From the NCBI GenBank assembly GCA_002104895.1, contig MCFG01000222.1, positions 1 to 64,000 of the forward strand: DNA of 64,000 nucleotides. The letters run 5' to 3'. Origin of the DNA: Anaeromyces robustus (Eukaryota; Neocallimastigomycota; Neocallimastigomycetes; Neocallimastigales; Neocallimastigaceae). Shown here piece after piece: positions 14,866 to 56,459 of the stretch; positions within the stretch are counted from its first letter, which is position 1, and each line of letters begins with the position of its first letter. The position numbers and the translations under genes are program-made. The notes below the pieces were generated by a model. The model was not told the DNA's origin and made no database searches. It saw nothing but the letters and a program-made list of their open reading frames with translations.

Positions 14866-16389
14866 ATTACTTTTGCTAATTAATTAAAATTATGACTGAT
14901 TTTTTTTATTATTACTAATTAAAAATTATTTTTTTTCCTTTATAAAAAAACATGAAATTTTGTGTGTCATGATTATTCAATTGTTTAATCATCTTTCATT
15001 TTTACTTTTTTGGTAATGTTTAAATCTTTTTATATTAACAAAACAAAAAACAAAATGAAAAAAAAATATTTTTAGGTTGTCTCATAAAATAATTATATGA
15101 AGATAAAGATAAGAAAAAAAATTAGGTTGTTAAAATATTATTTTATATGTTTAATTTTTATAATAAAAAATTGAAAGTATTTTATAGTTTTTATTATTAA
15201 TTTAATATTTTAAATATAAATATATAAAAATTATTCTATTTATTTTTATTTGACCTTTTTTTTTTTTTTATCATCTTTTATTAATATTTGTTAAAAAATT
15301 TTTTTTTTCATCTTTATGAATAAATAAATAAATTATTTATCTTTATATTTTGTTTATTACTATTTACATATATTATAATATATTATAAATATATTATAAT
15401 ATTAAATTTTTTTAATTTTTTCTTGTGTTTCATTTTTTTGTAATTTTATTAAATTTTAAACTTTTTTTACTTGTTTCTTTATTAAATTATGAAATTTAAT
15501 CGTCAAAAAGAAAAAAAATTTTTTAATTAAAAATTACCAATAAAAAAATATCAAATAGCTTTATACCAATAAAAAAAATATAAAAATATAAAAATATAAA
15601 AATATAGTTTTTTTTTTTTTTGCTATTCAAAATGAGTAAACAAAATTAAAAAGAAATAAATGATTATTATATATAATATAATTAATATTTATTAACATTA
15701 TATAAATAATTAATTGTAATTAATTGTAGTGGTAGTGATGAGTAATGTGTTAAATTTGTTAGTGTTTTAACTATTTTTATTTATTTTATGTAACCTATGT
15801 AATAATGTATGGATAATAATAATATATGAAAAATTAATAACTTTGTGTAAAATCACATATATAAATCTTAATTTTAATTAATTTTTCCTTTTTTATTTAA
15901 TTGTATACATTATGTAAAAATTGTATATTTTGTTTATTTTTTTTTTTTTTTTTCTATATAAATAAAGAAAAAAGATAATAACTGGATTATTAAAATAAAA
16001 ACAAAAAAAGGAAAAAGAATAAAAAAAAACAATAAACAAAATATATTAAAATAAAATAATATAATAAAATAAAAAAAAAAAAAAAAAGAAATAGTAATAA
16101 TAAAATTTTTTAAATTTAAATTTAAAAAATTAAACAATAAAAAAATATTAAAAAAAAAATAAAATTATAAAAATAAAAATAATAATTGAAATTACATAAT
16201 TAAAAATAAAAATGTTAAAATACTAAAGTTAACTAAAAACAAAAATAGAAAAAAAAAAGAATAATATAAAATATAAATATAAATAAAATAAGAATAAAAT
16301 TAATGAGTAAAAAATAAAAATAAAAATAAAAATAAAAAATAAAAATATAAAAATATAAAAATTAATTACAAAAAAATAATTTTAAAAAA
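14866..16389. other. AT-rich upstream region of the protease array
   Basis: No gene seen. The last 450 bases before the first protease start are almost pure A with some T, on the coding strand. The same A-rich leader precedes the other two full-length protease genes. Confidence 0.5.
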
Positions 16390-19300
16390 ATGAAAAACTT
16401 TTTTATAACATTTACTTTTATTTTATTATTTAAATGTTTTATCGGTGTTTCTACCGAAAAAATTAAAAATGCTAATTATATTGTAGGTATTTTAAGAAAT
16501 GAAAATGATAAAAATTATGATGATGAAAGACCAACAATTCAACAGAAAATTGATGAATTAGTTAATGACAGAATGAATGATATTTATAATGTCATTAGAG
16601 ATAATAAAGATACTTATATTTTAAGTAATGGAAAACAAGATGAAAAATTAAATGAATTAAATTCTTTTCCATTTGAAAAACGTTCTAATGTAACTCGAAA
16701 GTTTTCATTTATTAATAAAAGAAAAAGTTTTAGACATGGTTCTATTCTTTCTTCAGAAAGTTTTCATTTTTTAAAAGATCCTAAAGTTGAATATATTCCT
16801 TTTGAATCACAATTAGTTAGTCATATTTGTCCAATTTCAAATTATTATGCTATTAGTGTATATCTTTCAGAAGATATTGCAGAAATTGTTCGTAATATGA
16901 AAAATGTTTTATTTTGTGAAAAATCAAAAAAGTTAGAAATAGCTTTTCCTTCACCTCTTTCTTCTTCTTCATCACCTTCACCACCTTCACCTCCATCACC
17001 TTCACCTTCATCTCCACTTTCACCACCTTCACCTCCATCACCTCCATCACCTTCACCTTCATCTCCACTTTCACCACCATTACCACCATCACCACCTTCA
17101 CCTCCATCACCTCCATCACCTATAGACAAAGAACATGATAATAAAAATTCAAAAAAATATTATAATATTGAAGCTATTAAAAAGGAAACTCAATGGTCTG
17201 GTGTTAGTGTGCAAGAAATTTCTTATACTCCAAATCATTTATCATTAATTTCTCAATCTCCATTTGTTAATACCAATAGAACAATCGATACTAATTTTTA
17301 TTATCCAAGTTCAGCTGGTAAAGGTATTGATATCTACCTTGTTGATCAAGGGTTATATACAAATCATATAGATTTTAATCAATATAAAGGAACTCCAAAT
17401 GAACGTTCTATAACTTGTGATGCCATTTTCCATGATCATGAAATACATATTACTAAAGAAAATGAAAGAGAAAGATATAGGTGTAATGTAGGTGGTGCTT
17501 ATCCTTATCATGGTATTATGGTTTCCTCTATGGCCGGAGGAACATTATATGGTGTAGCAAAAAAAGCAAATATTCATATGATTGCTTTTGATTATAATAC
17601 TGTTAATGTGTTAAGAAGTTTTGATTATATTTTACTTAATGGTAAACCACATAAAACCATTATTAATATATCTTTTGGTGGTAATACTTATGATAAAGCA
17701 GTAGAAGATAAACTTACAGATTTAATTAATAAAGGTTTTATTATTATAGTTGTTTCTGGTAATGAAACTTCAAATTGTTGTGGTGATAAATCTTCTGGTG
17801 AATTTTTCAGTTTTCCTGGATATCGTAAAGCCATCACTGTTAGTGCCACTCTATCCGAATTAAATGGTGATGGTTATACTATAGCTGATTATTCAAATTT
17901 TGGAGATTGTGTTGATATATTTGCTCCAGGTAGTGTTCTTTATCCATCCCTTAAAGGTGATTCTACTACTAATACAGAAGTTTCTGATGGAACATCATGT
18001 GCTGCTCCACTTGTTGCTGGTATTGCTGCTACTATCATGTCCGAACATCCTGAAATTAGATTTAATAATGAATTAATGAGAAAAGCTTTAATTGAAATGT
18101 CTATCGATAATGCTATAGATCTTTCAAATTTAGATGATACCCCAAATCGATTTGTTAATAATGGAAAACATAGTATTTATTATCCAGATGATATTAATAT
18201 TCAATGTGGAACAGTTACCATTAATAATACTACACTGACGACTACCTGTCTTGATGGATGTTGTACAAAAAATGGGGAATGTATTTCTTTTGAAAATGAT
18301 CCAGGAGATCAATGTTTTTTGGAAAATGGATGTCAAAGTGAATTTGGATATTGTACTACCAAAGAAAAATCGATACAAGAATGTGAAAATGAATTAAAAG
18401 AAATGGAAGAATGTTTAATTAATATTCAACCTCATTTAATTATGGAAGATAAAATTGAAAAATGTCATATTTTTGATAGTCAAAAATGTCAAAAATTTTA
18501 TCAAAATCAATATTCTGGTAATTCTGTTTGTTCCATTGCTAAAAAATATAAAAAATTTAAATATATTGATCATTTTGATAAAGAAAAGTTTAATAGTAAT
18601 AGAAGAATATGTAATGATCTTTTTAATGATAATAAAATCAAATGTGAAAAACATATTAATAGTTTCCATGATTGTATATTAATTAATGATTTATGGATGG
18701 ATAATAGTACTACAGATAAAACAACAATCAATAATATAAAAGAAGAAGGTCATCTTTTCATTCATCAATGTAGTAATGTTAAATCGGAAAGATGTAAAAA
18801 GTTTTATAATAATATGGAAAAAGAAATCGTATCCAATCCTTCCTGTTCCATTTTAAATAAAATGGATAAACTTGAAATTTCCAATTATTTCAATGATGAA
18901 TCTATTGAAAATACATTAAATAATTATGAATTATTAAATAATAAATGTGATCAGTTCATTGATTATCCAGTCAAAGTTGAAAATTGTCATAGAGAATTAG
19001 AACAATATAAGGATTGTTTTCTTGATTTACCAAATGATAGAACAACTGTTCATGAACTTGTCGAAAAATGTTATACATTTGTAAATGATAAATGTTATCC
19101 TTTATATCATAATTATACCTATACTTTACCTAATTGTTATTACGTACAACAATTTGAAAAGGTTCCTTTAGTTGATAATATAAATGAAGTCATTGATACT
19201 TTTTCTGAAATTTGTGAATATAATGCAACAGAAGAGGTCAAAGAAAAATTTGTTACAGATTGTAGTGATGTATTACAAAATAATCAATGTACTTTTAAAT

Positions 19301-20145
19301 ATACACCTGAAGTAACGGAAGAAGAATTAAATCATATATGTAAAATATATAGTGTTGAAGAATGTAATAATTCTAGACATTTATTTGAAGCAAGGAGATA
19401 TTCTTCATGTCGTTTAGTTGATTTTGAAGATATTGATGCTTTATTTATGGATTTACTTCAAGAAAATAGTAAAAATAGCTTTTTATGTAAGAGTATGGAA
19501 GGTGATTATTCGAGTATACAACAAGTTAATTATCAATGTGAAGAACAATTAGCTTCCTATAATATTTGTAATCTTAATGATGAATTAGTGGATGAAAATG
19601 ATTTACAATATAGATGTATTGCTTTCTTAAGTAAAAAATGTCAATCCTTTTATAATAATCCAATGGTATCTATACCAAAATGTCATTTTGCTATGAAATA
19701 TAATAATAAAGATGTTAAAATATTTGATAAATCAAGTGAAAAATATAAATTTTATGAAGAAAGATGTATTCCAACTGATACTGATACCGATACTGATATT
19801 AATACTGATACAACAACCATTATTTTTGATGATAATTTAACAACCACTACCATTATTAATGATGAACCAACAGCTACTATTATTCTTGATGATAATTCAA
19901 TAACTAAACTTGATGATGATAATACCATACCAACTACTTTTCATCATGATGATTCCATAGTTACTACTCTAATTAATGATAATCCAACAATCACTTCTAC
20001 TTCATTTTATTATTCTTCAACCATTGTTCCAGTTGCTTCTTCAACCTCTATGACCATTTCACCTACACCAGCTCCAATTTTAACAGATTTTGATTTTGAA
20101 TCAGAAATTTTTGAAACAGAATATGAAACTTTAACCATAAATTGA
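16390..20145 (+). CDS. secreted subtilisin-like serine protease (S8) with CBM18-like and six-Cys modules, copy 1
   Basis: 1251 codons. Signal peptide 1-20; I9-type propeptide from about 26 (YIVGILRNENDKNYDDE); Pro/Ser-rich linker 187-244; S8 catalytic domain with D319 (DQG), H374 (HGI), oxyanion N458 (SGNE) and S536 (GTSCAAP). Next come a hevein/CBM18-like module 606-655 (CCTKNGEC, GCQSEFGYC) and about 660-1126 with five tandem six-cysteine modules of spacing C-x8/9-C-x15-29-C-x7-C-x11-14-C-x27-35-C. The tail 1127-1251 is Thr/Asp-rich and acidic. All triad residues are present, although DQG and HGI replace the usual D[ST]G and HGT. It is likely secreted, auto-processed and bound to chitin-containing wall. 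It heads a same-strand array of four. The ATG follows an A-rich leader. Confidence 0.92.
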   Translation: MKNFFITFTFILLFKCFIGVSTEKIKNANYIVGILRNENDKNYDDERPTIQQKIDELVNDRMNDIYNVIRDNKDTYILSNGKQDEKLNELNSFPFEKRSNVTRKFSFINKRKSFRHGSILSSESFHFLKDPKVEYIPFESQLVSHICPISNYYAISVYLSEDIAEIVRNMKNVLFCEKSKKLEIAFPSPLSSSSSPSPPSPPSPSPSSPLSPPSPPSPPSPSPSSPLSPPLPPSPPSPPSPPSPIDKEHDNKNSKKYYNIEAIKKETQWSGVSVQEISYTPNHLSLISQSPFVNTNRTIDTNFYYPSSAGKGIDIYLVDQGLYTNHIDFNQYKGTPNERSITCDAIFHDHEIHITKENERERYRCNVGGAYPYHGIMVSSMAGGTLYGVAKKANIHMIAFDYNTVNVLRSFDYILLNGKPHKTIINISFGGNTYDKAVEDKLTDLINKGFIIIVVSGNETSNCCGDKSSGEFFSFPGYRKAITVSATLSELNGDGYTIADYSNFGDCVDIFAPGSVLYPSLKGDSTTNTEVSDGTSCAAPLVAGIAATIMSEHPEIRFNNELMRKALIEMSIDNAIDLSNLDDTPNRFVNNGKHSIYYPDDINIQCGTVTINNTTLTTTCLDGCCTKNGECISFENDPGDQCFLENGCQSEFGYCTTKEKSIQECENELKEMEECLINIQPHLIMEDKIEKCHIFDSQKCQKFYQNQYSGNSVCSIAKKYKKFKYIDHFDKEKFNSNRRICNDLFNDNKIKCEKHINSFHDCILINDLWMDNSTTDKTTINNIKEEGHLFIHQCSNVKSERCKKFYNNMEKEIVSNPSCSILNKMDKLEISNYFNDESIENTLNNYELLNNKCDQFIDYPVKVENCHRELEQYKDCFLDLPNDRTTVHELVEKCYTFVNDKCYPLYHNYTYTLPNCYYVQQFEKVPLVDNINEVIDTFSEICEYNATEEVKEKFVTDCSDVLQNNQCTFKYTPEVTEEELNHICKIYSVEECNNSRHLFEARRYSSCRLVDFEDIDALFMDLLQENSKNSFLCKSMEGDYSSIQQVNYQCEEQLASYNICNLNDELVDENDLQYRCIAFLSKKCQSFYNNPMVSIPKCHFAMKYNNKDVKIFDKSSEKYKFYEERCIPTDTDTDTDINTDTTTIIFDDNLTTTTIINDEPTATIILDDNSITKLDDDNTIPTTFHHDDSIVTTLINDNPTITSTSFYYSSTIVPVASSTSMTISPTPAPILTDFDFESEIFETEYETLTIN

Positions 20146-22050
20146 TTATTATAATAATAATATAAGAAGAGATACTTTTTTTTTTTCTTTTCTTTTCTTT
20201 TTTTTAATTTTATAATATTAAACAAATGAAAATTTTAATTAATTATTAATTTTTTTAATATATATTATAAATAATTATAATATATAAAGGTATAAAGGAA
20301 AAGAAAGAAAAAAAAAAAAAAAAAAAAAAGAAGATTTTTTTTTATTTGATATTAATATTTCTCTAATTTATTTATTTATTTTTGTCAATATAATTAGTTA
20401 TAGTTATATGATGAAATGATAATCTATTAATATTTATATATATTGATAGAATAATTTATTTCTTTAAATATTTTTACTTAATAATAATTTATATATAACA
20501 GTAGATTTTTTTTTAAAAAAAAAAAATATATTAAAAAAAAAAAGAGTAGTTAATTTTTACATAATGTATAAATGTAGAAAAAAAAAAAGTGATATTTTTA
20601 ATTATTTAAAATATGTAAATAAGTATATAAATATTACAAAATGTTTTTATTTATAATCTTATTTAAAATACTAATTGTTTAATAAAAAAAAAATGTTTAA
20701 TTAAAACAAAAAATAGAATATACTATTTAAATATTGTTTTTTTTATTCCCCAATTTCTTTTTTTTTTAATAATTGATATAATATAATAAAAATATATATA
20801 TCTTTATATAATATTTTTATTTTATTTTATTATATATATATTATTTTTATAATAAAATTGTTATATCTTTCAATTTTTTGTTATTCCAATATAGAATATA
20901 GAAACAATATTGTTATTGTTAATAAACATTAATTAATTATTATTGTTATTATTCATTATGTTATTATCATAATATTTAATAATTAATTATTATTTTTTTT
21001 TTTAAATAGATGGAGAAAAAGAATATAATTAGATTATTAAAAAAGAATTTTTTAAATGATAAATTAATTAATTATATAATTAAAAAGAAAAAAAAAATTA
21101 AATCTCTTTTAAGATTTATTTTTTGTACTACAACAATAAAAATTTTTAATGAATTAAATTAAATTTTTAAAAATTTAAAAAAATATATATTTTTTCCTAA
21201 TAATGAAATATATATATTATAAATGGACTATAAATATATTGTAATTATATTTAAATAAATTCATTATAAAAAAAAATAAATTTATATATTTTATAGTTTT
21301 TTGTTAAATATTAATAAAATATTATTATTATTAAAAGATTATTCAAATATTATTATTTTTTATTATTTTTTATTATTGTTATAATTTTTTATTATTATTT
21401 ATCTATATTAATATAAACTCTAAAAATTATTTTTATTATGCATATAACTTTTATTTCAATTTTTTAATAATTTTTTATTAATTTTATGTATAAATTTATG
21501 TTATTAATAATATTTTTTAATTAATCTATGTATTTTATATCACGATTAATAAACATGTGATTATTTATAATTATATATAAATATTTATTAAAATTTATTA
21601 TTAATATTAAAAATGTTTTTTTTTTTTTTTGTTTAAATTATTATGATTTTTGTTATCATATAATATTTTTTTAAAATGATTTTAAAAATATTATTATTGT
21701 TTTATGAGTAACACAAATTTCACACTATTTTTTTCTATTTTAATCATAATAATAATAATTATTAATTAAAATTAATTAAAATTAAATAAAAATTAAAAAT
21801 AAGAAAAAAAAAAAAAAAAAAAATTAAGAATAAAAAAAGTGAATATTTTTTTTTTTTAAATTAAGAAATAATGTAAATAAAATTCAAAAAAAAAAACAAA
21901 AAAAGTAAAAATAAAAAAAGAAAAAAGAAAAAAGAAATAAAAAAGAAAAAAAAGAAAAAAAATAAAAGAAAAAATAATAATAAATGAAAATAAAATTAAA
22001 AAAATTATTTAAGAATTAAATTAATTAAAAAAAAAAAAATTAAATTGAAA
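20146..22050. other. AT-rich spacer between protease copies 1 and 2
   Basis: No gene seen in about 1.9 kb. Contains poly-A near 20310-20330 and an A-rich leader of about 250 bases directly before copy 2. No similarity to the protease coding sequence was noticed. Confidence 0.5.
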
Positions 22051-25000
22051 ATGAACAATTATATAATATTTGTCATAATTTTATTATTAAACAGTTTCAT
22101 TGGTGTTTATACCGAAGAAATTAAAAATTATAACTATATTGTAGCTATTTTAAGAAATGAAAATGATAAGAATTATGATGATGAAAGACCAACAATTCAA
22201 CAGAAAATTGATGAATTAGTTAATGACAGAATGAATGATATTTATAATGTCATTAAGGATAATAAAAATACTTATATTTTAAGTAATGGAGAACAAGATA
22301 AAAAATTAAATGAATTAAATTCTCTTCCATTTGAAAAACGTTCTAATGTAACTCAAAAATTATTATTTATTAATAAAAGACCAAAACTTAATCATAGTTC
22401 GGTACTTTCTTTTGAAAAAAATTCTAAAATTTCAAAGGATTCTGAAATTGAATATATTCCATTTGAATCACAATTAGTTAATCATATTTGTCCAATATCT
22501 AATTATTATACTATTAGTGTATATCTTTCAGTAGAAACTGCAAAAATTGTATGTGATATGGAAAATGTTTTATTTTGTGAAAAATCAATGGAACTAGAAT
22601 TACCTAATCCTCAACTATTAAAAATTCAAAATGATGATAATAATGATAACAAATCAAAAGTCCATTATAATATTGATGCTATTAAAAAGGAAACTCAATG
22701 GTCTGATGTTAGTGTACAAGAAATTTCTTATACCCCAAATCATTTATCATTACTTTCTCAATCTCCTTTCGCTAATACAGATAAAACCATTGATTCTAAT
22801 TTTTATTATCCAAGTTCAGCAGGTAAAGGTATTGATATTTATCTTATTGATCAAGGTTTTTATGCAAACCATGAAGATTTCGATAGATATGAAGGAACTG
22901 AAGATGAACGTACTTTAACTTGTGATGTTATTATCAAAGATAATGATATACATATTATAAAAGATGATGAAGAAGAAAAATATAAATGTACAGGTATTGA
23001 CAGTTATCCTTTCCATGGTATAATGGTTTCATCAATGGCAGGAGGAACACTATATGGTGTTTCTAAAAAAGCAAATACTCATATGGTTGCTGTAAATTTT
23101 ACTTATTTAAGTTTGGTAAGAAGTCTTGATTATATTTTACTTCATGGTAAACCAAATAAAACAGTTATCAGTATTTCTGTTGTTACTTATTCCTATATAA
23201 AAGCATTTGAAGATAAACTTTCCGATTTAATTGATAAAGGATTTATTATCTTTGTTGCTGCTGGTAATGATAATATTAATTGTTGTGATCAAAAAGATAG
23301 TGAACACTTTTATAGTTTTGCAGGATATCGTAAAGCTATAACCGTAGGTGCTACAGATACAGAAATAAACGGTGGTGAAGGTTATACAAAAGCATCTTTT
23401 TCAAATTATGGTAATTGTATTGATATATTTGCTCCAGGTATTGTAACATTCCCATACTTTGAAAATGGTTCTAATACTGATGTTGCAGTATCCCTTGGAA
23501 CATCATGTTCTACACCTCTTGTTGCTGGTATTGCTGCATCTATTATGTCAGAACATCCTGAAATTGAATTTAATAATGAATTAATGAGAAAAACTTTAAT
23601 GGAAATGTCAATTAAAGATGAAATACTTTTTCCAAATTTAGATGACATTAAAGATACTCCAAATCAATTTGTTAATAATGGAAAACGTAGTATTTATTAT
23701 CCAGATAATGTTAATATTCAATGTGGAAAATCTTCCAATAATAATAATAATGGTATTTGTTCTGAAGGATGTTGTACCAAAGATGGTGAATGTATTTCTT
23801 TTGAAAATCATCCAGGAGATAAATGTTTTATTGAAAATGGATGTCAAAGTGAATTTGGATATTGTACTACTAAAGAAAAATCTATTAAAGAATGTGAAAA
23901 TGAATTAAAAGAAATGGAAGAATGTTTAATTGAAATTTCATCAGATTTGACAATAGATGATATTATTACTCAATGTAATACTTTTAATTCTCAAAAATGT
24001 CAAATATTTTATGAAAATCAATTTTCTAATCGTAGTATTTGTTCTATTGCTAAGGAGTTTAAACAATTCAAAAATCTTGATTATTTTGATAAAAAAGATA
24101 TTTATAATAATAATAAAGATATTTGTAAAAATTACTATAAAGTTGATGAAAAAAAATGTAATAAACATTTCAGTAAATATAATGATTGTATAATTTACAA
24201 TTTATATGATGACAGTCGTTATCAAAATATAGATGATTTAAAAGAAAATAAAAATTTCATAGAATTATGTAGTAATATTAAATCTAACAAATGTAAAAAA
24301 TTTTATAAAAATATAGAAGAAGAAATATTAAGTTATCCTTCATGTGCCATTATGTATAAAATAGATCCATTTGATATTTCAGATTATTTCAAAGATTCAG
24401 TCGAATATACATTAAAATATTATGATACATTAAATCAAAAATGTGACAGTGTCATTGATTCTTCAGTTAAAATTGAAAATTGTAATAAAGAATTAGAAGA
24501 ATATAAAGATTGTTTCCTTGAAATGCCAAATAATAATACTACTAATGATGAACTTGTCAATGGATGTTATACATTCTTTAATGATAAATGTTATGAACTA
24601 TATCATAATTATAAAAATATTTTACCAAATTGTTATTATGCTCAACAATTTCAAAATTTCCCATTATTAAATAATTTATCAGAAATTACTGAGACATATG
24701 CTGATATTTGTGAATATAACCCACCTAAAGAAATAAAAAAAAAATTTATTACTGATTGTAGATCAACTTTTAAAAATGAAAAATGTACATTTGAATATAA
24801 TGCTGAAATGACGGATACTGAATTAACTCAAAAATGTGAAACATATTTAGATGAAAATTGTAGTAGAAACCAATATTTATTAGATTATTATGGTAATATT
24901 GCTTGTAGTTTGATTGAAGATGAAGATGTAGTCTATGAATTAAATAATTCCATTAAAAGTTGTGAAATCAATAAATATTTATGTTTGAGTATGAAAAATG

Positions 25001-26343
25001 ATGAAAGTAGTAAAAAACAAATTAATAGTTTATGTGAAGTAGAATTAATACCTTATGAAAAATGTAACCTTAATAATGAAAATATAAATAATTTAGATAA
25101 TAATTGTAGGACTTTCTTAGATGAAGATTGTCAAGCATTTTATGAAAATCCATTTAAATTCATTCCAAATTGTCATTTTATGATGAGAAATAATTTTAGA
25201 AATATTGATATATTTGATAAATCAAATGAAAAATATAAATATTATGAAAATAAATGTATTTCTAATAATAATACTGCTACTATTACTTTAATAACTACGT
25301 CTTCTACTATTTCAATTCCTACAACTATTAAACAAACAACAACTACCAAGAAGACAACAACTACTACTTCAATTCCTACAACTATTAATTCAACAACAAC
25401 TACTACTTCAATCCCTACTACTACTAAAAAAACAACAACTACTACTTCAATCCCTACTACTACTAAAAAAACAACTACTACTACTTCAATCCCTACTACT
25501 ACTAAAAAAACAACTACTACTACTTCAATCCCTACTACTAAAAAAACAACAACTACTACTTCAATCCCTACTACTACTAAAAAAATAACTACTACAACTA
25601 CTAAAAAAACAACAACTACTACATCAATCCTTCCAACCACTAAAAAAACAACTACTACAACTACTACCAAAAAAACAACTACTACATCAATCCTTCCAAC
25701 CACTAAAAAAACAACTACTACATCAATCCTTCCAACCACTAAAAAAACAACTACTACATCAATCCTTCCAACCACTAAAAAAACAACTACTACATCAATC
25801 CTTCCAACCACTAAAAAAACAACTACTACATCAATCCTTCCAACCACTAAAAAAACAACTACTACATCAATCCTTCCAACCACTAAAAAAACAACTACTA
25901 CTAAAAAAGCAATAGTTATTACTAAGAAAATAATAATTACTAAAAAAACATCTACAACTACTAAAAAAACATCTACAACTGCTATAAAAACATCTACAAC
26001 TACTAAAAAAACATCTACAACTACTAGAAAAACATCTACAACTACTAGAAAAACATCTACAACTACTAGAAAAACATCTATTGCTACTAAAAGAACATCT
26101 ACTACTTCTAAAAAAACAACTACTAGTAAAAAAACAACTACTACTAAAAAAACAACTACTAGTAAAAAAACAACTACTACTAAAAAAACAACTACTACTA
26201 AAAAAACAACTACTACTAAAAAAACAACTACTAATAAAAAAACAACTACTACTAAAAAAACAACTACTACTAAAAAAACAACTACTACTAAAAAAACTTC
26301 CACAAAAAAGTCTTCAACTAAAAAGACAAAAACAACTAAGTAA
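22051..26343 (+). CDS. secreted subtilisin-like serine protease (S8), copy 2, with long Thr/Lys tail
   Basis: 1430 codons from the ATG at 22051 (an in-frame TTG lies 6 bases upstream but ATG is preferred). Signal peptide about 1-20; I9-like propeptide (NYIVAILRNENDKN); short Asn/Asp linker near 190-208; S8 domain with D267, H322, N406 and S485 (GTSCSTP); CBM18-like module 558-605; six-Cys modules to 1069. The tail 1070-1430 is about 360 residues of Thr/Lys: 12-13-residue repeats TTSIPTTTKKTTT and then TSILPTTKKTTT, followed by TTTKK runs. The tail is basic, unlike that of copy 1, and would be heavily O-glycosylated. The DNA of the tail is a near-perfect minisatellite. Identity to copy 1 is high in the propeptide and catalytic domain. 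Confidence 0.92.
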   Translation: MNNYIIFVIILLLNSFIGVYTEEIKNYNYIVAILRNENDKNYDDERPTIQQKIDELVNDRMNDIYNVIKDNKNTYILSNGEQDKKLNELNSLPFEKRSNVTQKLLFINKRPKLNHSSVLSFEKNSKISKDSEIEYIPFESQLVNHICPISNYYTISVYLSVETAKIVCDMENVLFCEKSMELELPNPQLLKIQNDDNNDNKSKVHYNIDAIKKETQWSDVSVQEISYTPNHLSLLSQSPFANTDKTIDSNFYYPSSAGKGIDIYLIDQGFYANHEDFDRYEGTEDERTLTCDVIIKDNDIHIIKDDEEEKYKCTGIDSYPFHGIMVSSMAGGTLYGVSKKANTHMVAVNFTYLSLVRSLDYILLHGKPNKTVISISVVTYSYIKAFEDKLSDLIDKGFIIFVAAGNDNINCCDQKDSEHFYSFAGYRKAITVGATDTEINGGEGYTKASFSNYGNCIDIFAPGIVTFPYFENGSNTDVAVSLGTSCSTPLVAGIAASIMSEHPEIEFNNELMRKTLMEMSIKDEILFPNLDDIKDTPNQFVNNGKRSIYYPDNVNIQCGKSSNNNNNGICSEGCCTKDGECISFENHPGDKCFIENGCQSEFGYCTTKEKSIKECENELKEMEECLIEISSDLTIDDIITQCNTFNSQKCQIFYENQFSNRSICSIAKEFKQFKNLDYFDKKDIYNNNKDICKNYYKVDEKKCNKHFSKYNDCIIYNLYDDSRYQNIDDLKENKNFIELCSNIKSNKCKKFYKNIEEEILSYPSCAIMYKIDPFDISDYFKDSVEYTLKYYDTLNQKCDSVIDSSVKIENCNKELEEYKDCFLEMPNNNTTNDELVNGCYTFFNDKCYELYHNYKNILPNCYYAQQFQNFPLLNNLSEITETYADICEYNPPKEIKKKFITDCRSTFKNEKCTFEYNAEMTDTELTQKCETYLDENCSRNQYLLDYYGNIACSLIEDEDVVYELNNSIKSCEINKYLCLSMKNDESSKKQINSLCEVELIPYEKCNLNNENINNLDNNCRTFLDEDCQAFYENPFKFIPNCHFMMRNNFRNIDIFDKSNEKYKYYENKCISNNNTATITLITTSSTISIPTTIKQTTTTKKTTTTTSIPTTINSTTTTTSIPTTTKKTTTTTSIPTTTKKTTTTTSIPTTTKKTTTTTSIPTTKKTTTTTSIPTTTKKITTTTTKKTTTTTSILPTTKKTTTTTTTKKTTTTSILPTTKKTTTTSILPTTKKTTTTSILPTTKKTTTTSILPTTKKTTTTSILPTTKKTTTTSILPTTKKTTTTKKAIVITKKIIITKKTSTTTKKTSTTAIKTSTTTKKTSTTTRKTSTTTRKTSTTTRKTSIATKRTSTTSKKTTTSKKTTTTKKTTTSKKTTTTKKTTTTKKTTTTKKTTTNKKTTTTKKTTTTKKTTTTKKTSTKKSSTKKTKTTK
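25300..26340 (+). repeat. coding minisatellite (Thr/Lys tail of protease copy 2)
   Basis: Blocks of 36-39 bp such as ACTACATCAATCCTTCCAAC followed by CACTAAAAAAACA repeat almost without change between about 25610 and 25890. Earlier blocks use TTCAATCCCTACTACTACT, and later ones are 15-bp ACTACTACTAAAAAAACA-type units. The phase always preserves the Thr/Lys frame, so expansion and contraction change tail length only. Confidence 0.9.
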
Positions 26344-26946
26344 ATATAATACTGTCGTAATGAAATGAGTATTTTTTTTATAAAAAAAAAAAAAAAGCCA
26401 AATAATTAATTAAATTTTTTTATTTTTGTTTATATTATATATAAATAAACAAAAATGAAAAAAATGAAAATGTAAATATATTATAATTAATAATATATTT
26501 TTATTTATTTATTTATATATTTATATATATATTATTAATAATAAGATAAATAATGAAATAGATATAATTATCATAATAAAAATAATAAAACAAATATCAT
26601 AGAAAAAAAAAATAAAAAAAAAAATATATTTTTTAATATTTATTATTAAAATATAATTATCAATATCTAATAAATTAATTTAAGTAAATATATTTGAAAC
26701 ACAAAAACAAAAAAAATTAAAAAAAAAAGGCTAAGATTTATTATAAAATTTAATTTATAGTATATTTGTAGCCATGATAAATTTAAATAAAGTATATTTA
26801 TATATATAATGAAAAATAAAATAAAGAATAACAAAAAATAAAATTGAAAATTACAAATATAACATTTTTAAATAAAAAAAACTCTTTATATCATTTATTT
26901 ATTTATTTATTTATTTAAATATTTATTTATTTATTTATTTAAATAT

Positions 26947-27029
<83 letters not shown>

Positions 27030-27715
27030 TAATTTAATTCATAATTTTTATCAAACCAATTATAATAAATAACAATTTAATTATAAAATATAAAAAAAAA
27101 TATGAAACTAATTTGTATGAATTATAGTAAAATTTAGTGTAACACAGTGATACATAAAATAGAATTTTTAATTATTTAACTTTTTAATTGTTTAACTTAA
27201 ATTTTTATTATTTATTTCATACATTATTAAAAAATTATTTTAGTACTCCAACAAAAAAAATATATATAAAATATAATTAAATATTATTTTAATGGAAATT
27301 CTATTTTTTTTTTTTTTCAAAATTTATATTAAACTCAATGATTTAATAAATAAATAAATATTAAACTTTTTATATTTATATAGATTATTCATAATCTTTT
27401 ATTCTTTCCAATTATATACAGATTATCTCCTATTTTTTTTTTTTTTTTAATAATTTATTATGTTTTTTCTATAAAAATAAGAAAATTTCTTTATACAAGC
27501 TTTGCAAAAAAAAAAAAAAATTAAATTCATATATAAAATTTTATTAAATTATTAAAAATTAAAAATATAAAAAAATAAAATATAAAAAATAAAATATAAA
27601 AAATAAAATATAAAAAATAATAAAAATAAAATAAAAAAATAATATTAAAAAATAAATTAATAAAATAGTATTACAAAAATAAATGAAAATATATAAACAA
27701 AAATAATATTTAAAA
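26344..27715. other. AT-rich spacer between protease copies 2 and 3
   Basis: No gene seen. Holds a long (ATTT)n array (about 26896-27030) and an A-rich leader of some 190 bases before copy 3. Confidence 0.5.
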
Positions 27716-30700
27716 ATGTATAATAACTATTTATTAATTCTTTTAACTTTATTATTTAATTTTTTTATTTGTGCTTATTCTAAAGAAATAAAAAATGATA
27801 ATTATATTGTAGGTATTTTAAGAAATGAAAATGATAAGAATTATGATGATGTCAGTATAAATATTCAAAAAGAAATTGATGAGTTTATCAATGATAAAAT
27901 GAATGATATTTATAATATTATTAAAGAAAATAAAGATACTTATGGAAAAGATGATGAAAAATTAAATGAATTAAATTCTATTCAATTTAATAAACGTTCA
28001 AATGAAACTGAAAAATTATTATTCATAAATAAAAGATTAAAATCTAATCATAATTCTGTACTTTCTTCAGAATTTTCTAAATCTTCAAAAGGTTCGAAAG
28101 TTGAATATATTCCTATTGAATCAACTTTAGTTAATCATATTTGTCCAATTTCAAATTATTATGCTATTAATGTGTATCTTTCAGATGAAACTGCAAAAAT
28201 TGTACGAAATATGAAAAATGTTATATTTTGTGAAAAATCAATAAATTTAAAATCCACTATTCCTAAACCATTAAAACATAAAGAAAAAAGAAATAATTAT
28301 AGTAATATTAATAATAATGATATTAATAATAATGATATTAATAATAATGATATTAATAATAATGATAATGATGATAATGATAATGATGATAATAATTCAA
28401 AGTTATATTATAATATTAATGCTATTAAAAAGGAAACTCAATGGTCTGATGTTAGTGTACAAGAAATTTCTTATACTCCAAATCATTTATCATTACTTTC
28501 TCAATCTCCTTTAGTTAACAAAAATAAAACTATTGATTTTAATTTTTATTATCCAAGTTCAGCAGGTAAAGGTATTGATATTTATCTAATTGATCAAGGT
28601 TTATATTCAAATCATGAAGATTTCAATAGATATGAAGGAACTGAAGATGAACGTACTATTACTTGTGATGCTATTGTTAAAGATAATGATGTATATATTA
28701 CTAAAGATGATGAAGAAGAAAGATATCAATGTTCTGGAGATGATGATTATCCTTATCATGGTACAATGGTTTCATCTATGGCAGGAGGAACATTATATGG
28801 TGTTTCTAAAAAAGCAAATATTCATATGATCGGTATAAATGTTAATACTCTTAGTACATTAAAAAGTCTTGATTATATTTTACTTCATGGTAAACCACAT
28901 AAAACAGTTATAAGTATATCTATTGGTTTTTATTTTTATGATAAAGCATTAGATGATAAACTTACTGATTTAATTAATAAAGGATTTATTATTGTTACTG
29001 GTGCTGGTAATGATGAAAATAATTATTGTGTTGATAAGTATTCCGATCACTTTTTCAGTTTCCAAGGATATCGTAAATCTATAGTTGTTGGTGCCATTGA
29101 TACTGAATTAAATGGTGATGGATATACTAAATCATTTTATTCAAACTATGGAAATTGTGTTGATATATTTGCTCCTGGTTTAGTAACATTTCCATACAAT
29201 GAATATGGTTCCACTACTGATGTTAATACGCTTGAAGGAACATCATGTGCTACACCTATTGTTGCTGGTATTATTGCTTCAATTATGTCAGAACATCCTG
29301 AAATTAAATTTAATAATGAATCAATGAGAAAAACTTTAATAGAAATGTCAATTAAAGATAAAATTCTTTTCCCAAATTTAGATGACACCAAAGATACTCC
29401 AAATCGATTTGTTAATAATGGAAAGCGTAGTATTTATTATCCAGACAATGTTAATATTCAATGTGGAAAATCTTCCAATAATAATAATAATAATGGTATT
29501 TGTTCTGAAGGATGTTGTACTAAAGATGGTGAATGTATTTCTTTTGAAAATCATCCAGACGATAAATGTTTTATTGAAAATGGATGTCAAAGTGAATTTG
29601 GATATTGTACAACCAAAGAAAAATCAATTGAAGAATGTGAAAATGAAATAAAAGAAAATGAAGAATGTTTAATTGAAATTTCATTAGATTTAACAATAGA
29701 TGATATTATTACTCAATGTAATACTTTTAATTCTCAAAAATGTCAAATTTTTTACCAAAATCAATTTTCTAATCGTAGTATTTGTTCAATTGCTAAAGAA
29801 TTTAAACAATTTAAAAAGTATGATGATTTTGATTTTAATAAATATAATAACAATAAAAATATTTGTAATGATCATTTTGGTACCGATATAATCAAATGTA
29901 AGAAGCATATTACCAGTTTTAATGATTGTATACTTGAAGAAGAATTATTTGATGATTTTAATAATACAGAAATTGATGAATTAAAAGAAAATAAATATTT
30001 CGTTGAAACATGTGGAAGTATCAAATCGGATAAATGTGAAAAATTTTATAAAAATATAGAAGAAGAAATATTAAGTTATCCTTCATGTTCCATCATTAAT
30101 AAATTACAGAAAATAAATATTTCAAAATATTTCGATGATGTATCTGTTGACTATACATTAAATAATTATAAAATATTAAGTAGCAAATGCGATAATATAA
30201 TTGACCTTTCAGTTAAGATTGAAAATTGTAATAAAGAATTAGAAGAATATAAAGATTGTTTCCTTAATATGCCAAATAATACTACTACCGATGATGAACT
30301 TACAGAAAATTGTTATACATTTATTAACCCGAATTGTTACAATTTATACTATGATTACAAAAGTGTCTTACCAAATTGTCATTACGCTCAACAATTTCAA
30401 AATTTCACTTTATTAAATAATTTACCGGAAATTACTAATACTTATATGGATATTTGTAAATATAACCCACCTAAAAATATAAAAGCAAAATTTATTTCAG
30501 ATTGTAGATCTTATTTAATAGATGAAAAATGTATATTTGATTATAATTTTGAAATGACAAATGAAGAATTAATTCAAAAATGTGAAATTTATACTAAAGA
30601 ATGTACTAACAATTACTTAAATCAATATCTAAATATTCCTGGTTGCCGTTTAGTTGAAGATAAGGATGTAATACACGAATTTTATTTTTCAAAATCAAAA

Positions 30701-31498
30701 ATAAAGGATAATAAGCATTTATGTATGAGTATGAAAGGAAATGATAATGATATTCATGAAGTTAATAATTTATGTGAAATAGAATTAGAAAGATATAAAA
30801 TTTGTAATCTTAATACTAATAAGGAGTTTATCAATGAAAATAATTTAAAAAGTAATTGTATTAATTTCTTAAACGAAGAATGTCAAGCATTTTATAAAAA
30901 TCCATTTAAAAATATTCCATATTGTCATTATGCAATGAAAAATAATTTTAGAAATATTGAAATATTTGATAAATCAAATGAAAAATATAAGTATTATGAA
31001 GAAATATGTCTTTCTAATAATAGTACTATTATTTCAACCACTTCTTCTATTATTTCAACTGATGCAACTCCTACTTCATCCCCAACTTCAACTACTAAAA
31101 AAACAACCACTATTAAAAAAACAACCACTACTAAAAAAGAAAACACTACTAAAAAAGAAACCACTACTAAAAAAACAACCATTACTAAAAAAACAAATAC
31201 TACTAAAAAAACAACCTCCACTAAAAAAATAACCACTACTAAAAAAACAAAAACAACCACTATTAAAAAAACAATCTCTACAAAAAAAACAACCACTACT
31301 AAAAAAACAACCTCCACTAAAAAAACAAACACTACTAAAAAAACAACCTCTACTAAAAAAACAAACACTACTAAAAAAACAACCTCTACTAAAAAAACAA
31401 ACACTACTAAAAAAACAACCTCTACTAAAAAAACAATCTCTACTAAAAAAACAACCTCTACTAAAAAAACAATCTCTACTAAAAAAAACAAAAATTAA
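27716..31498 (+). CDS. secreted subtilisin-like serine protease (S8), copy 3
   Basis: 1260 codons. Signal peptide (MYNNYLLILLTLLFNFFICA); I9-like propeptide; an Asn/Asp/Ile linker with NNNDI repeated four times where copy 1 has Pro/Ser; S8 domain with D293 (DQG), H348 (HGT), N432 (GAGND) and S510 (GTSCATP); CBM18-like module 583-631; five six-Cys modules to 1098; Thr/Lys tail 1099-1260 built on TTKKT/TSTKK units. HGT is canonical here, whereas copies 1 and 2 have HGI. Bases from about 28524 to 31703, i.e. from within the catalytic domain through about 200 bp of 3' flank, were duplicated in tandem to give the truncated copy 4. Probably secreted and wall-associated. Confidence 0.92.
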   Translation: MYNNYLLILLTLLFNFFICAYSKEIKNDNYIVGILRNENDKNYDDVSINIQKEIDEFINDKMNDIYNIIKENKDTYGKDDEKLNELNSIQFNKRSNETEKLLFINKRLKSNHNSVLSSEFSKSSKGSKVEYIPIESTLVNHICPISNYYAINVYLSDETAKIVRNMKNVIFCEKSINLKSTIPKPLKHKEKRNNYSNINNNDINNNDINNNDINNNDNDDNDNDDNNSKLYYNINAIKKETQWSDVSVQEISYTPNHLSLLSQSPLVNKNKTIDFNFYYPSSAGKGIDIYLIDQGLYSNHEDFNRYEGTEDERTITCDAIVKDNDVYITKDDEEERYQCSGDDDYPYHGTMVSSMAGGTLYGVSKKANIHMIGINVNTLSTLKSLDYILLHGKPHKTVISISIGFYFYDKALDDKLTDLINKGFIIVTGAGNDENNYCVDKYSDHFFSFQGYRKSIVVGAIDTELNGDGYTKSFYSNYGNCVDIFAPGLVTFPYNEYGSTTDVNTLEGTSCATPIVAGIIASIMSEHPEIKFNNESMRKTLIEMSIKDKILFPNLDDTKDTPNRFVNNGKRSIYYPDNVNIQCGKSSNNNNNNGICSEGCCTKDGECISFENHPDDKCFIENGCQSEFGYCTTKEKSIEECENEIKENEECLIEISLDLTIDDIITQCNTFNSQKCQIFYQNQFSNRSICSIAKEFKQFKKYDDFDFNKYNNNKNICNDHFGTDIIKCKKHITSFNDCILEEELFDDFNNTEIDELKENKYFVETCGSIKSDKCEKFYKNIEEEILSYPSCSIINKLQKINISKYFDDVSVDYTLNNYKILSSKCDNIIDLSVKIENCNKELEEYKDCFLNMPNNTTTDDELTENCYTFINPNCYNLYYDYKSVLPNCHYAQQFQNFTLLNNLPEITNTYMDICKYNPPKNIKAKFISDCRSYLIDEKCIFDYNFEMTNEELIQKCEIYTKECTNNYLNQYLNIPGCRLVEDKDVIHEFYFSKSKIKDNKHLCMSMKGNDNDIHEVNNLCEIELERYKICNLNTNKEFINENNLKSNCINFLNEECQAFYKNPFKNIPYCHYAMKNNFRNIEIFDKSNEKYKYYEEICLSNNSTIISTTSSIISTDATPTSSPTSTTKKTTTIKKTTTTKKENTTKKETTTKKTTITKKTNTTKKTTSTKKITTTKKTKTTTIKKTISTKKTTTTKKTTSTKKTNTTKKTTSTKKTNTTKKTTSTKKTNTTKKTTSTKKTISTKKTTSTKKTISTKKNKN

Positions 31499-31703
31499 CC
31501 ACTACAAAATAAAACAAAAAAAAAGTATTTTACTAAAAAAATATATATATTAAAAAACAGAAAAAAGAATGAAATAAATACCATACAATATAATTCCTTC
31601 TGTAAAGAAATAATTATGATAATATAAATCCAAAATTATTTATAATATTTATAAATAATTTTTTATAAACATTTTATTTAAAAAAATAAAATAAGATATT
31701 TAT

Positions 31704-34700
31704 AAAACTATTGATTCTAATTTTTATTATCCAAGTTCAGCAGGTAAAGGTATTGATATTTATCTAATTGATCAAGGTTTATATTCAAATCATGAAGATT
31801 TCAATAGATATGAAGGAACTGAAGATGAACGTACTATTACTTGTGATGCTATTGTTAAAGATAATGATGTATATATTACTAAAGATGATGAAGAAGAAAG
31901 ATATCAATGTTCTGGAGATGATAGTTATCCTTATCATGGTACAATGGTTTCATCTATGGCAGGAGGAACATTATATGGTGTTTCTAAAAAAGCAAATATT
32001 CATATGATTGGTATGGATATTACTACTCTTAGTGCATTAAGAAGTCTTGATTATATTTTACTTCATGGTAAACCACATAAAACAGTTATAAGTATGTCCG
32101 TGGGTCAACCTGCCTATTTTAAAGCATTTGATGATAAACTTACTGATTTAATTAATAAAGGATTTATTATTGTTACTGGTGCTGGTAATGATGAAAGTAA
32201 TTATTGTGTTGATAAATATTCCGATCACTTTTACAGTTTCCAAGGATATCGTAAAGCTATAGTTGTTGGTGCCATTGATACTGAATTAAATGGTGATGAA
32301 TATACTAAATCATTTTATTCAAACTATGGAAATTGTGTTGATATATTTGCTCCAGGTTTAGTAACATTTCCATACAATCCATATGGTTCCACTACTGATG
32401 TTAATATGCTTCAAGGAACATCATGTGCTACACCTATTGTTGCTGGTATTATTGCTTCAATTATGTCAGAACATCCTGAAATTGAATTTAATAATGAATT
32501 AATGAGAAAAACTTTAATAGAAATGTCAATTAAAGATAAAATACTTTTCCCAAATTTAGATGACATCAAAGATACTCCAAATCGATTTGTTAATAATGGA
32601 AAACGTAGTATTTATTATCCAAATGATGTTAATATTCAATGTGGAAAATCTTCCAATAATAATAATAATGGTATTTGTTCTGAAGGATGTTGTACCAAAG
32701 ATGGTGAATGTATTTCTTTTGAAAATCATCCAGGCGATAAATGTTTTATTGAAAATGGATGTCAAAGTGAATTTGGATATTGTACAACCAAAGAAAAATC
32801 AATTGAAGAATGTGAAAATGAAATAAAAGAAAATGAAGAATGTTTAATTGAAATTTCATTAGATTTAACAATAGATGATATTATTACTCAATGTAATACT
32901 TTTAATTCTCAAAAATGTCAAATATTTTATCAAAATCAATTTTCTAATCGTAGTATTTGTTCAATTGCTAAAGAATTTAAACAATTTAAAAAATATGACG
33001 ATTTAAATTTTAATAAATATCATAACAATAAAAATATTTGCAAAGATCAATTTAATATTGATGAAATCAAATGTGAAAAACATATTAACAGTTTTGATAA
33101 TTGCTTAATCTTAAGTTTATATGATGATGAAGATTATACAAATATCGACGAATTAAAAGAAAATGAATTTTTCATTGAAGCATGTGGAAGTATCAAATCG
33201 GATAAATGTAAAAGATTTTATAAAGATATTGAAAAAGAAATATTAAGTAATCCTTCATGTGCCATTGTAAATAAAATTCATCCTATTGATATTCAATATC
33301 ATTTTGATGATATTTTTATTAATCGAACATTAACATATTATGATCAATTTAATAGTCAATGCGATAATATAATTGACTCTTCAGTAAAAATTGAAAATTG
33401 TAATAAACAATTAGAAGAATATAAAGATTGTTTCCTTGATATGCCAAATAATACTACTACCGATGATGAACTTATAGAAAATTGTTATATATTTGCTAAC
33501 CCAAAATGTTACGATTTATATTTTAATTACAATATTGACTTACCAAATTGTCATTATGCTCAACAATTTCAAAATTTCACTTTATTAAATAATTTACCGG
33601 AAATTACTGATACTTATATGGATATTTGTAAATATAACCCACCTAAAAATATAAAAGCAAAATTTATTTCAGATTGTAGATCATATGTAAAAGATGAAAA
33701 ATGTACGTTTAAATATTATCCTGAAATGACAGATGAAGAATTAAGTCAAAAATGTGAAATTTATTTTGAAGAAGATTGTAGTAGTTTAAATTATTTAGTA
33801 AATTATAGTAGTAGTCCTGCTTGTCAGTTAATTGAAATTAAAGATATTACATATGAATTAAATGCTGCCAGAAATGATGTTGATAATAATAATAATTTAT
33901 GTATGAGTATGAAAGGAAGTGATAGTGATATTCAAGAAGTTAATAATTTATGTGATATGGAATTAGAAGGATATAAAAATTGTAATCTTAATACTAATAA
34001 AGAATTTATCAATGAAAATGATTTAAAAAATAATTGTATAAATTTCTTAAATGAAGAATGTCAAGCATATTATGAAAATCCATTTAAATATATTCCATAT
34101 TGTCATTATGCAATGAAAAATAATTTTAGAAATATTGAAATATTTGATAAATCAAATGAAAAATATAAGTATTATGAAGAAATATGTCTTTCTAATAATA
34201 GTACTATTATTTCAACCACTTCTTCTATTATTTCAACCACTTCTTCTATTATTTCAACTGATGCAACTCCTACTTCATCCCCAACTTCAACTACTAAAAA
34301 AACAACCACTATTAAAAAAACAAGCACTACTAAAAAAGAAACTACTACAAAAAAAACAACCTCTAGTAAAAAAGAAATCACTACTAAAAAAACAACCTCT
34401 ACTAAAAAAGTAACCTCTACTAAAAAAGTAACCTCTACTAAAAAAACAACTACTACTAAAAAAACAAAAACAACTTCTACTAAAAAAACAAAAACAACCT
34501 CTACTAAAAAAACAACTACTACTAAAAAAACAAAAACAACTTCTACTAAAAAAACAAAAACAACCTCTACTAAAAAAACAACTACTACTAAAAAAACAAA
34601 AACAACTTCTACTAAAAAAACAAAAACAACCTCTACTAAAAAAACAACTACTACTAAAAAAACAAAAACAACCACTACTAAAAAAACAACCTCTACTAAA

Positions 34701-34978
34701 AAAACAACCTCTACTAAAAAAACAACCTCTACTAAAAAAACAACCTCTACTAAAAAAAACAAAAATTAACCACTACAAAATAAAACAAAAAAAAGTATTT
34801 TACTAAAGAATATATATTAAAATATTAAAAAACAGAAAAAAGAATTAAATAAATACCATACAATTTAATTCCTTCTGTAAAGAAATAATTATGATAATAT
34901 AAATCCAAAATTGTTTATAATATTTATAAATAATTTTTTATAAATATTTTATTTAAAAAAATAAAATAAGATATTTAT
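31704..34978 (+). repeat. tandem duplicate of 28524-31703
   Basis: The block starts in the middle of the protease catalytic domain (ACTATTGATTCTAATTTTTA, as at copy 3) and runs through the tail and the same 3' flank (CCACTACAAAATAAAACAAA ... AAGATATTTAT). It is joined directly after the 3' flank of copy 3, with a few shared bases (ATAAAAC / TATAAAAC) at the junction. Unit length is about 3.2-3.3 kb; the size difference lies mainly in the Thr/Lys tail. Confidence 0.9.
31707..34769 (+). pseudogene. 5'-truncated subtilisin-like protease, copy 4
   Basis: The open frame runs without a stop from 31707 (ACT ATT GAT, inside the catalytic domain) to 34769. It lacks the signal peptide, propeptide and start of the S8 domain. 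The triad codons are all still there (Asp at 31770, His at 31935, Ser at 32421). The first in-frame ATG is at 31944, after both Asp and His, so a protein made from it (941 codons) could not be a working protease and would not enter the secretory pathway. The CBM18-like module, five six-Cys modules and Thr/Lys tail are intact, so the duplication is recent. Upstream lies a copied 3' flank, not a promoter-like leader. It could serve as a donor for gene conversion. Confidence 0.85.
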
Positions 34979-55772: not shown

Positions 55773-56127
55773 TTTTTTTTTTTTTTGATAATATTTTTTT
55801 TTTATTATTTTTAATAAATATTAGTTTTAAAAAATCATTTTGTTATATATATATATATACATTTTTTTTTTGTATTATAATAAATATAAAATTATTTAAT
55901 AATTAAAGTTCACTTTTATATTTTTATTTATTTATTAAATAATTTTAAATATTTTTTTAATTATGTTAAGATTTTTTTTAATAATAAATTCAAAGATTAT
56001 TAATTAGCGTAAAAATCATAACGCTTTTTGTTACACCAGCATTACAATTAATGTATAATATATTTTAAATTGGCAAATTTTACTTAATTTATTTTTGGTA
56101 GGTGATTATTATTTATTATTATTTAAT

Positions 56128-56335: not shown

Positions 56336-56459
56336 ATACAAAATACAAAATAATATAATATAAAATAAAATATAAAATATAAAATAATATATGAAATAGA
56401 TAAAATAGAATATATTTAAATATTTAATTTTATTTTATTTTTAAATATTATTTTCTTTT

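Follow-up and report, generated by a model that had tools for sequence, protein, structure and literature searches.

Four tandem subtilase genes of Anaeromyces robustus carry arrays of a six-cysteine repeat without a significant match in Pfam, NCBIfam or the PDB

Results

The window, that is, the whole stretch of DNA analysed, covers 64,000 nucleotides of Anaeromyces robustus (assembly GCA_002104895.1, contig MCFG01000222.1, positions 1 to 64,000, forward strand). Its translation reveals four tandem plus-strand genes for proteinase-K-like subtilases, each carrying five six-cysteine repeats (Table 1). In gene 1 a putative signal peptide is followed by a propeptide-like region, the S8 domain, a hevein-like module, repeats R1 to R5 and a T/D-rich tail; the tails of genes 2-4 are T/K-rich. 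Signal peptides and propeptide-like regions were read by eye from the translations of genes 1-3, and no propeptide model matched. Judged by their translations, genes 1-3 look like complete proteases. A sequence-only reading had described the locus as an array of proteases, which holds with an amendment for gene 4. This gene is truncated, stemming from the second unit of a tandem duplication of 3.28 kb; it has neither signal peptide nor propeptide, and no methionine lies upstream of residue 84, itself three residues past the catalytic His.

Table 1. Coordinates in the window of the four subtilase genes and their domains.
Feature	Position	Strand	Basis or remark
Gene 1	16390..20145 (open frame 16366-20145)	+	Translation; Pfam S8; tail composition
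S8 catalytic domain, gene 1	17317..18102	+	Asp-His-Ser motifs present; aqualysin-1 4dzt match
Hevein/CBM18-like 8-Cys module, gene 1	18205..18354	+	Aromatic pair absent
Six-Cys repeat R1, gene 1	18367..18624	+	
Six-Cys repeat R2, gene 1	18628..18960	+	
Six-Cys repeat R3, gene 1	18970..19227	+	
Six-Cys repeat R4, gene 1	19246..19500	+	
Six-Cys repeat R5, gene 1	19522..19779	+	
Gene 2	22051..26343 (open frame 22000-26343)	+	Architecture of gene 1; long T/K-rich tail
S8 domain, gene 2	22822-23607	+	
Hevein-like module, gene 2	23722..23865	+	
R1-R5, gene 2	23878..25269	+	23878-24138, 24142-24456, 24466-24723, 24742-24996, 25018-25269
Gene 3	27716..31498 (open frame 27707-31498)	+	Architecture of gene 1; T/K-rich tail
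Hevein-like module, gene 3	29462..29608	+	
R1-R5, gene 3	29621..31021	+	29621-29878, 29882-30202, 30212-30469, 30488-30736, 30758-31021
Gene 4	31695..34769	+	Truncated copy of gene 3; neither signal peptide nor propeptide in the open frame
Hevein-like module, gene 4	32640..32783	+	
R1-R5, gene 4	32796..34199	+	32796-33053, 33057-33374, 33384-33641, 33660-33914, 33936-34199
Tandem duplication unit, second copy	31702..34978	+	3.28 kb; first copy 28524-31703; 88.9% identical

The Pfam peptidase S8 family (PF00082, curated cut-off 21.8 bits) was matched by gene 1 at 86.4 bits (E 2.8e-24), gene 3 at 87.5 and gene 4 at 89.6; the trimmed protein of gene 2 scored 83.1 bits (E 2.9e-23) and its whole protein gave no match. 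The triad motifs (VDQG or IDQG, YHG or FHG, and GTSC) are present in all four frames. In a PDB search the S8 domain of gene 1 aligned to aqualysin-1 (4dzt, E 8.6e-21), and proteinase K was among the best 60 of 109 matches. The window genes share with these MEROPS S8A enzymes the catalytic domain and the triad motifs, as well as, by eye and in genes 1-3, a putative signal peptide and propeptide, but differ from proteinase K-like subtilases in what follows the catalytic domain, namely the hevein-like module, the five six-cysteine repeats and the T-rich tail.

The core of the hevein-like module, with eight cysteines, a CC-x5-C centre and the ending GCQ-x-x-(F/Y)G-x-C, matches the canonical modules of the genome and is like that of CBM18/hevein (PF00187). 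However, PF00187, searched up to E 1, matched neither genes 1, 3 and 4 nor the N-terminal parts of genes 1 and 2 after trimming. The two aromatics of the binding core, at positions that we take from hevein, occur together in 5 of 11 canonical copies (5 more have one of them) and in 0 of 43 variant modules (36 distinct). As the pair is missing throughout the variants, chitin binding by the module is doubtful, and we reject a typical CBM18 beside the protease; the CBM18-like module proposed earlier is atypical. The GH114-linked module at 6467-7369 matches lectin-C in the PDB (1ulk, E 2.8e-14), whereas the window variant has no PDB relative (best chance match E 0.25).

Five tandem six-cysteine copies follow the module in all four frames, as had been claimed, and in copy 1 the repeat block (18367-19779) spans 471 residues compared with 262 for the S8 match, in keeping with the earlier estimate of about 470 residues, larger than the catalytic domain. 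The spacing in copy 1 is C-x8/9-C-x15-31-C-x7-C-x13-16-C-x25-33-C; the sequence-only reading had the x8/9 and x7 steps right, including the invariance of C-x7-C in the five repeats of this copy, whereas the upper end of its x15-29 and its ranges x11-14 and x27-35 were slightly off. R4 of copy 3 has x6 at the C-x7-C step, and R4 of copy 2 has one additional cysteine. Long, low-complexity, N/D-rich insertions are located in the C2-C3 and C5-C6 loops, and across the 20 window repeats full invariance is confined to the six cysteine columns. Homology was tested by scoring each repeat with a profile built from the other array positions, against 500 shuffles per repeat in which the cysteines were held fixed. 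Sixteen of the 20 repeats outscored all 500 shuffles; the others were R2 of P0004 (1 shuffle as good) and R4 of P0001, P0002 and P0004 (21, 2 and 2 equally good). In 16 of 20 tests, then, the scores support homology of the window repeats beyond their cysteines.

No significant match to the repeat was found in Pfam, NCBIfam or the PDB with the window proteins, the repeat blocks or 34 diverse repeats, which agrees with the earlier view that it belongs to no named family, and no Pfam family was matched by more than one of the 34. On these comparisons the repeat is a domain family undescribed by the databases searched and not a new kind of system. We found no description of the domain in the open-licence papers searched, including the available text of PMC10978972, PMC8262932 and PMC8778642, which does not prove the domain undescribed. 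No relative turned up in prokaryote or viral contigs, each set scanned with two short peptide patterns, a weak test of the earlier suggestion that the domain is specific to these fungi; a wider repeat profile had no stretch conserved enough for contig scanning, and a near-identity plasmid search, uninformative here, gave no match.

Across the genome the six-cysteine domain lies downstream in 48 of 131 subtilase (S8) matches. A further 58 matches to the domain lie outside the protease frames, and for 50 of these the frame is 109-326 residues long. With a profile of the 20 window repeats alone, 27 of 30 single-domain candidates scored above all 200 cysteine-fixed shuffles (for L073, L074 and L078, 3, 1 and 2 shuffles were as good). 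One domain is fused to ZinT (E 6.6e-23), with no protease in the part read, and in one protein the domain accompanies a canonical CBM18. The occurrence of the domain on its own in small secreted proteins and in the ZinT fusion shows that it is neither protease-specific nor confined to chitin-module subtilases. The fetched frames carry 1 to 8 repeats each, 242 in all; 200 are full-length, of which 197 retain six cysteines.

In 88 of 90 comparisons the nearest relative of a repeat in another protein occupied the same array position (1 in 5 expected), and in 86 of 90 after arrays at least 45% identical were dropped. The ordered array therefore predates the gene family; simple homogenisation of a tandem array is rejected, since the repeats retain their position identity. 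Between genes 3 and 4, dS in R2 and R4 is higher than in the other segments by a factor of about 2.6 to 11 (dN/dS 0.64 and 0.78, respectively), which makes mosaic exchange likelier than positive selection. Ratios near or above 1, all of them resting on few synonymous changes, were obtained for genes 2/3 (R5 1.08), genes 2/4 (R4 1.12, R5 1.16), genes 1/3 (R4 0.97, R5 1.04) and the S8 domain of genes 3/4 (0.95), and we make no claim of positive selection on the repeats.

A survey of lost cysteines, run at a loose threshold, covered 268 matches; 4 with withheld letters were dropped, 207 had all six cysteines, and the 57 others were mostly cut ends or displaced cysteines, two being chance matches. 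By eye, C3 and C6 were lost jointly twice, in a protease repeat on contig C59 and in the single-domain protein L059, and C2 and C4 once, in L075 (C5 and C6 placed by eye). Single losses affected C1 once, C2 once, C5 twice and C6 twice, one of the latter at a frame end. From the three double losses we propose, provisionally, the pairing C1-C5, C2-C4, C3-C6. Along the consensus, the hydrophobic moment was greater at 100 degrees than at 160 in 18 of 23 windows, and a crude propensity average was not clearly helical; the fold is probably mostly helical and probably held by three disulfides.

Discussion

We propose that the six-cysteine repeat forms an extracellular domain some 85 residues long and that the array is most likely a protease-resistant binding arm on secreted proteases, a reading to which we assign a probability of roughly 0.55. 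An extracellular location, as argued earlier, fits the context of signal peptides read by eye and of conserved cysteines. Delivery and maturation of the enzyme would fall to the signal peptide and propeptide, and cleavage of protein to the catalytic domain; the five-repeat array would hold the enzyme on a partner or surface, and the T-rich tail may be a glycosylated anchor. Conservation by array position is easier to reconcile with distinct sites than with a homogenised spacer. Against a binding arm, the mosaic divergence of R2 and R4 in genes 3 and 4 may reflect recombination rather than ligand selection, and the lack of a signal peptide argues against secretion of gene 4.

Alternatively, the array might serve as nothing more than a stiff spacer or stalk, raising the protease above the wall without binding anything. 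The tolerance of long N/D-rich insertions, the restriction of invariance in the window to six cysteines and the variable copy number would suit such a stalk, which we nevertheless regard as unlikely given the position-specific conservation and the presence of single domains in small secreted proteins with nothing to space. Given the 131 S8 matches of the genome, these many single-domain proteins could also be read as secreted protease inhibitors or chaperones, with the arrays acting in cis on the enzyme. The disulfide order of Kazal inhibitors is C1-C5, C2-C4, C3-C6, the same as our provisional pairing; their spacing and sequence, however, do not match, no inhibitor family appeared among the Pfam matches of three single-domain proteins or the 34 repeats, and the ZinT fusion shows no protease in the part read, so that a role in regulating proteolysis seems improbable.

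We think it very unlikely that the repeat belongs, as a diverged member, to a known domain family, for instance that of the CHCH/Cx9C helical hairpin. It has the C-x9-C step in a likely helix in common with these hairpins, and weak matches recur: CX9C was matched by two of the four repeat blocks in the window (best E 0.061), CHCH by one of the four (0.32) and in the window protein scan (0.35), and COX17 by 1 of 34 repeats (0.095). Yet it differs in its six cysteines, its C-x7-C second step and its secreted context, the scores, where given, were 11.5 bits against a cut-off of 27.2 and 11.9 against 26.4, and no family recurred among the diverse repeats. In CHCH domains C1 pairs with C4 and C2 with C3, with which the double losses clash, and membership in CHCH/Cx9C is rejected on this misfit together with the sub-threshold scores. 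That the repeats are a cohesin-like docking receptor, serving the fungal cellulosome or an assembly system parallel to it, is an idea to which we attach hardly any weight. The genome is rich in dockerins (683 candidates, of which 150 were scored and gave 150 PF02013 matches) and, according to the available text of PMC8262932, a conserved fungal cohesin domain is still elusive. However, PF02013 (fungal dockerin/CBM10) found no match in genes 1, 3 and 4 or in the four repeat blocks, and the scaffoldins described in that text, which exceed 500 kDa, are repeat-rich and bind dockerin, are by description unlike five-copy protease tails.

A broader version of the binding arm, which we offer as speculation with long odds, is that the domain is a general extracellular recognition fold of anaerobic gut fungi and builds, alongside the dockerin cellulosome, another system for assembly or attachment, in which protease arrays and the single domains of small secreted proteins would bind each other or a ligand in common, on the wall or the plant. 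Should the domain be a binding module, it would tag about a hundred genes of partly known or obscure role in this one genome (the 48 subtilase matches and the 58 others) and would offer a handle on the sites of action of the expanded subtilases; the domain databases would also gain a new cysteine-anchored family. Anaerobic gut fungi attract study as degraders of plant biomass, and we found little literature on their protein-degrading secretome. The available text of PMC8778642 reports S08 homologues as frequent and expanded in Neocallimastigomycota, and we found in it no account of accessory domains such as those described here. The same text places the S08A copy number among the lowest in Neocallimastigomycota, which is in tension with the number of S8 matches counted in this genome.

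An ordered array of five six-cysteine repeats

Four consecutive plus-strand subtilase frames occupy 16.4 to 34.8 kb of the window (genes 1-4), and all four have what the sequence-only reading had described, five tandem six-cysteine repeats (R1-R5, by array position) behind a CBM18-like module. The S8 catalytic domain is followed in order by this eight-cysteine module, the repeats and a low-complexity tail, T/D-rich in gene 1 and T/K-rich in genes 2-4. By eye, the S8 domain of genes 1-3 is preceded by an N-terminal signal peptide and a propeptide-like region; three of the four proteases appear secretable, as judged from sequence, and have the triad motifs. Among the matches listed, aqualysin-1 is the closest PDB match of the gene 1 protease.

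Features of the window
Feature	Position	Strand	Remarks
GH114-like glycoside hydrolase with C-terminal canonical CBM18	6467-7369	+	Pfam 3.8e-62 and 7.6e-07
Gene 1	16366-20145	+	
Gene 2	22000-26343	+	
Gene 3	27707-31498	+	
Gene 4	31695-34769	+	
Duplicated unit (~3.28 kb)	28524-31703		88.9% identity to its copy
Copy of the unit	31702-34978		
Expansin-like frame	37087-38139	-	weak DPBB match (0.00021), below cut-off; membrane span by eye
Resembles LINE-type retrotransposon protein	42067-46329	-	1420 codons; endonuclease and reverse transcriptase motifs by eye
Small cysteine-rich protein	52804-53646	-	weak EB-module match (0.0025), below cut-off
Small cysteine-rich protein	54963-55820	-	
Related piece	near 56428	+	

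In gene 1 the repeats are spaced C-x8/9-C-x15-31-C-x7-C-x13-16-C-x25-33-C and share 16-27% identity with one another, as against 33-63% with their counterparts at the corresponding array position in the paralogues; across the 20 window repeats only the six cysteines are invariant. Each position was scored with a profile built from the remaining four, and 500 shuffles with the cysteines fixed served as control: 16 of the 20 repeats beat every shuffle, the exceptions being R2 of the window protein P0004 (1 equal or better shuffle) and R4 of P0001 (21), P0002 (2) and P0004 (2). As three of these four exceptions are R4, this position is the least certain member of the family. Long N/D-rich low-complexity runs lie within the cysteine domains of five contigs of the genome (C128, C254, C212, C59 and C200), in the loops between the second and third and the fifth and sixth cysteines.

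The genome (70.2 Mb, 769 contigs) was searched by scoring the best candidates, so that match counts are lower bounds. The gene 3 repeat block found at least 88 matches and the S8 domain at least 131, which are matches rather than genes, some genes being split. For 48 of the 131 S8 matches a repeat match begins no more than 1500 bases downstream, on the strand of the S8 match, the repeat list consisting of the 88 block matches and four added ones, with one overlapping case missed. An iterated profile search of the window and of fetched stretches, which were chosen because they contain matches, gave 242 repeats, distributed over 65 of 503 frames. Of the 200 that are full-length, 197 retain all six cysteines. 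Twenty frames carry five repeats, and 18 were compared, leaving out those on C200 (a gap between repeats) and C193. The nearest repeat in another protein occupied the same array position in 88 of 90 cases, and still in 86 of 90 after exclusion of proteins with at least 45% whole-array identity. Because nearest relatives share position, the ordered array predates the expansion of the family, and its five members are not interchangeable. Several repeat-bearing subtilase matches are clustered on each of contigs C419, C193, C672, C77 and C1; a stretch of C672 contains ten in-frame stops, and C193 has copies that are broken across frames. An expansion of S08 proteases in anaerobic fungi is reported in one source, which also places S08A copy number among the lowest in anaerobic fungi (PMC8778642).

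Gene 4 lacks signal peptide and propeptide because the duplicated copy starts inside the protease; its first methionine is residue 84, past the catalytic His (residue 81), and the frame is open over 1024 codons. Between genes 3 and 4 dS is low (0.04-0.13) in the S8 domain, the hevein-like module, R1, R3 and R5, and high in R2 (0.42) and R4 (0.35), an unevenness which suggests that their divergence is a mosaic from exchange among paralogues.

Relation to known families

The repeat had not been recognised as a named domain, and profile and repeat searches of Pfam, NCBIfam and the PDB bore this out with no significant match. Neither the four window blocks nor 34 diverse repeats matched a Pfam model above cut-off. 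The best matches of the blocks were CX9C in two of four (best E 0.061) and CHCH in one (0.32), and membership of CX9C was rejected, its score being far below cut-off; no family was matched by more than one of the 34 diverse repeats, the best single match being DUF753 (0.0067). NCBIfam gave one chance-level match (0.12), the PDB nothing up to E 1 with the window profile and only tektin-4 (E 2) with the diverse profile. Prokaryote and viral contigs, scanned with two short peptide patterns each, yielded no relative.

The domain outside proteases

A non-protease frame used as query found further matches, and a query from one of those gave at least 77. By hand count 18 lie in protease-type frames and 58 elsewhere, 50 of the latter in frames of 109-326 residues; one further match, in a frame of 227 residues on contig C101, looks like a protease fragment. 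Thirty of the 58 were fetched, ten at length (stretches L051-L060). By eye each of these ten starts with a signal peptide, continues with a single six-cysteine domain and then shows a CP step followed by a C-x-x-x-x-C step, except that two of the six cysteines are missing from L059; L051 additionally bears a canonical CBM18. As the 30 had been preselected by similarity, the argument for kinship rests on shuffles: with a profile built from only the 20 window repeats, 27 of the 30 outscored every one of 200 shuffles that kept the cysteines fixed. ZinT is a zinc-recruitment domain family best known from bacteria, and on contig C766 (2600-3800) a six-cysteine domain precedes a ZinT domain (Pfam E 6.6e-23) in a frame of 1738 residues; what looks like the beginning of another copy of the linker suggests repetition within this frame.

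Fold, function and the hevein-like module

Each repeat probably consists of short helices held together by three disulfides. The helical hydrophobic moment of the consensus dominates in 18 of 23 windows; a crude propensity average is not clearly helical. Paired cysteine losses, three events only, hint at a putative pairing C1-C5, C2-C4 and C3-C6. Conservation by array position and the occurrence of the domain on its own both favour a putative binding role over that of a simple spacer.

The "chitin module" of these enzymes, which lies between protease and repeats, resembles hevein-like modules in the order of its eight cysteines and in ending with GCQ-x-x-(F/Y)G-x-C. The fetched frames contain 43 such variant modules (36 distinct), 42 of them sharing a frame with repeats. 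Scored at the binding-core positions that we take from hevein, none of the 43 has both aromatics and one has a single one, compared with both in 5 and one in 5 of 11 canonical modules; the pair is thus lost throughout the variant class, though canonical modules vary too. Unlike the CBM18 of the window's glycoside hydrolase, which matches lectin-C and wheat germ lectin in the PDB, the variant module has no PF00187 match and no PDB relative. On present evidence the name chitin-binding is better withheld from these enzymes.

Window and genome setting

CBM10-type dockerins are abundant in the genome (at least 150 matches, with 150 of 683 candidates scored). G+C in the window is very low, 0.10-0.31 per 2 kb, and the two features taken together are consistent with an anaerobic gut fungus. 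The small cysteine-rich proteins of the window are apparently membrane-anchored, and two of them are near-duplicates.
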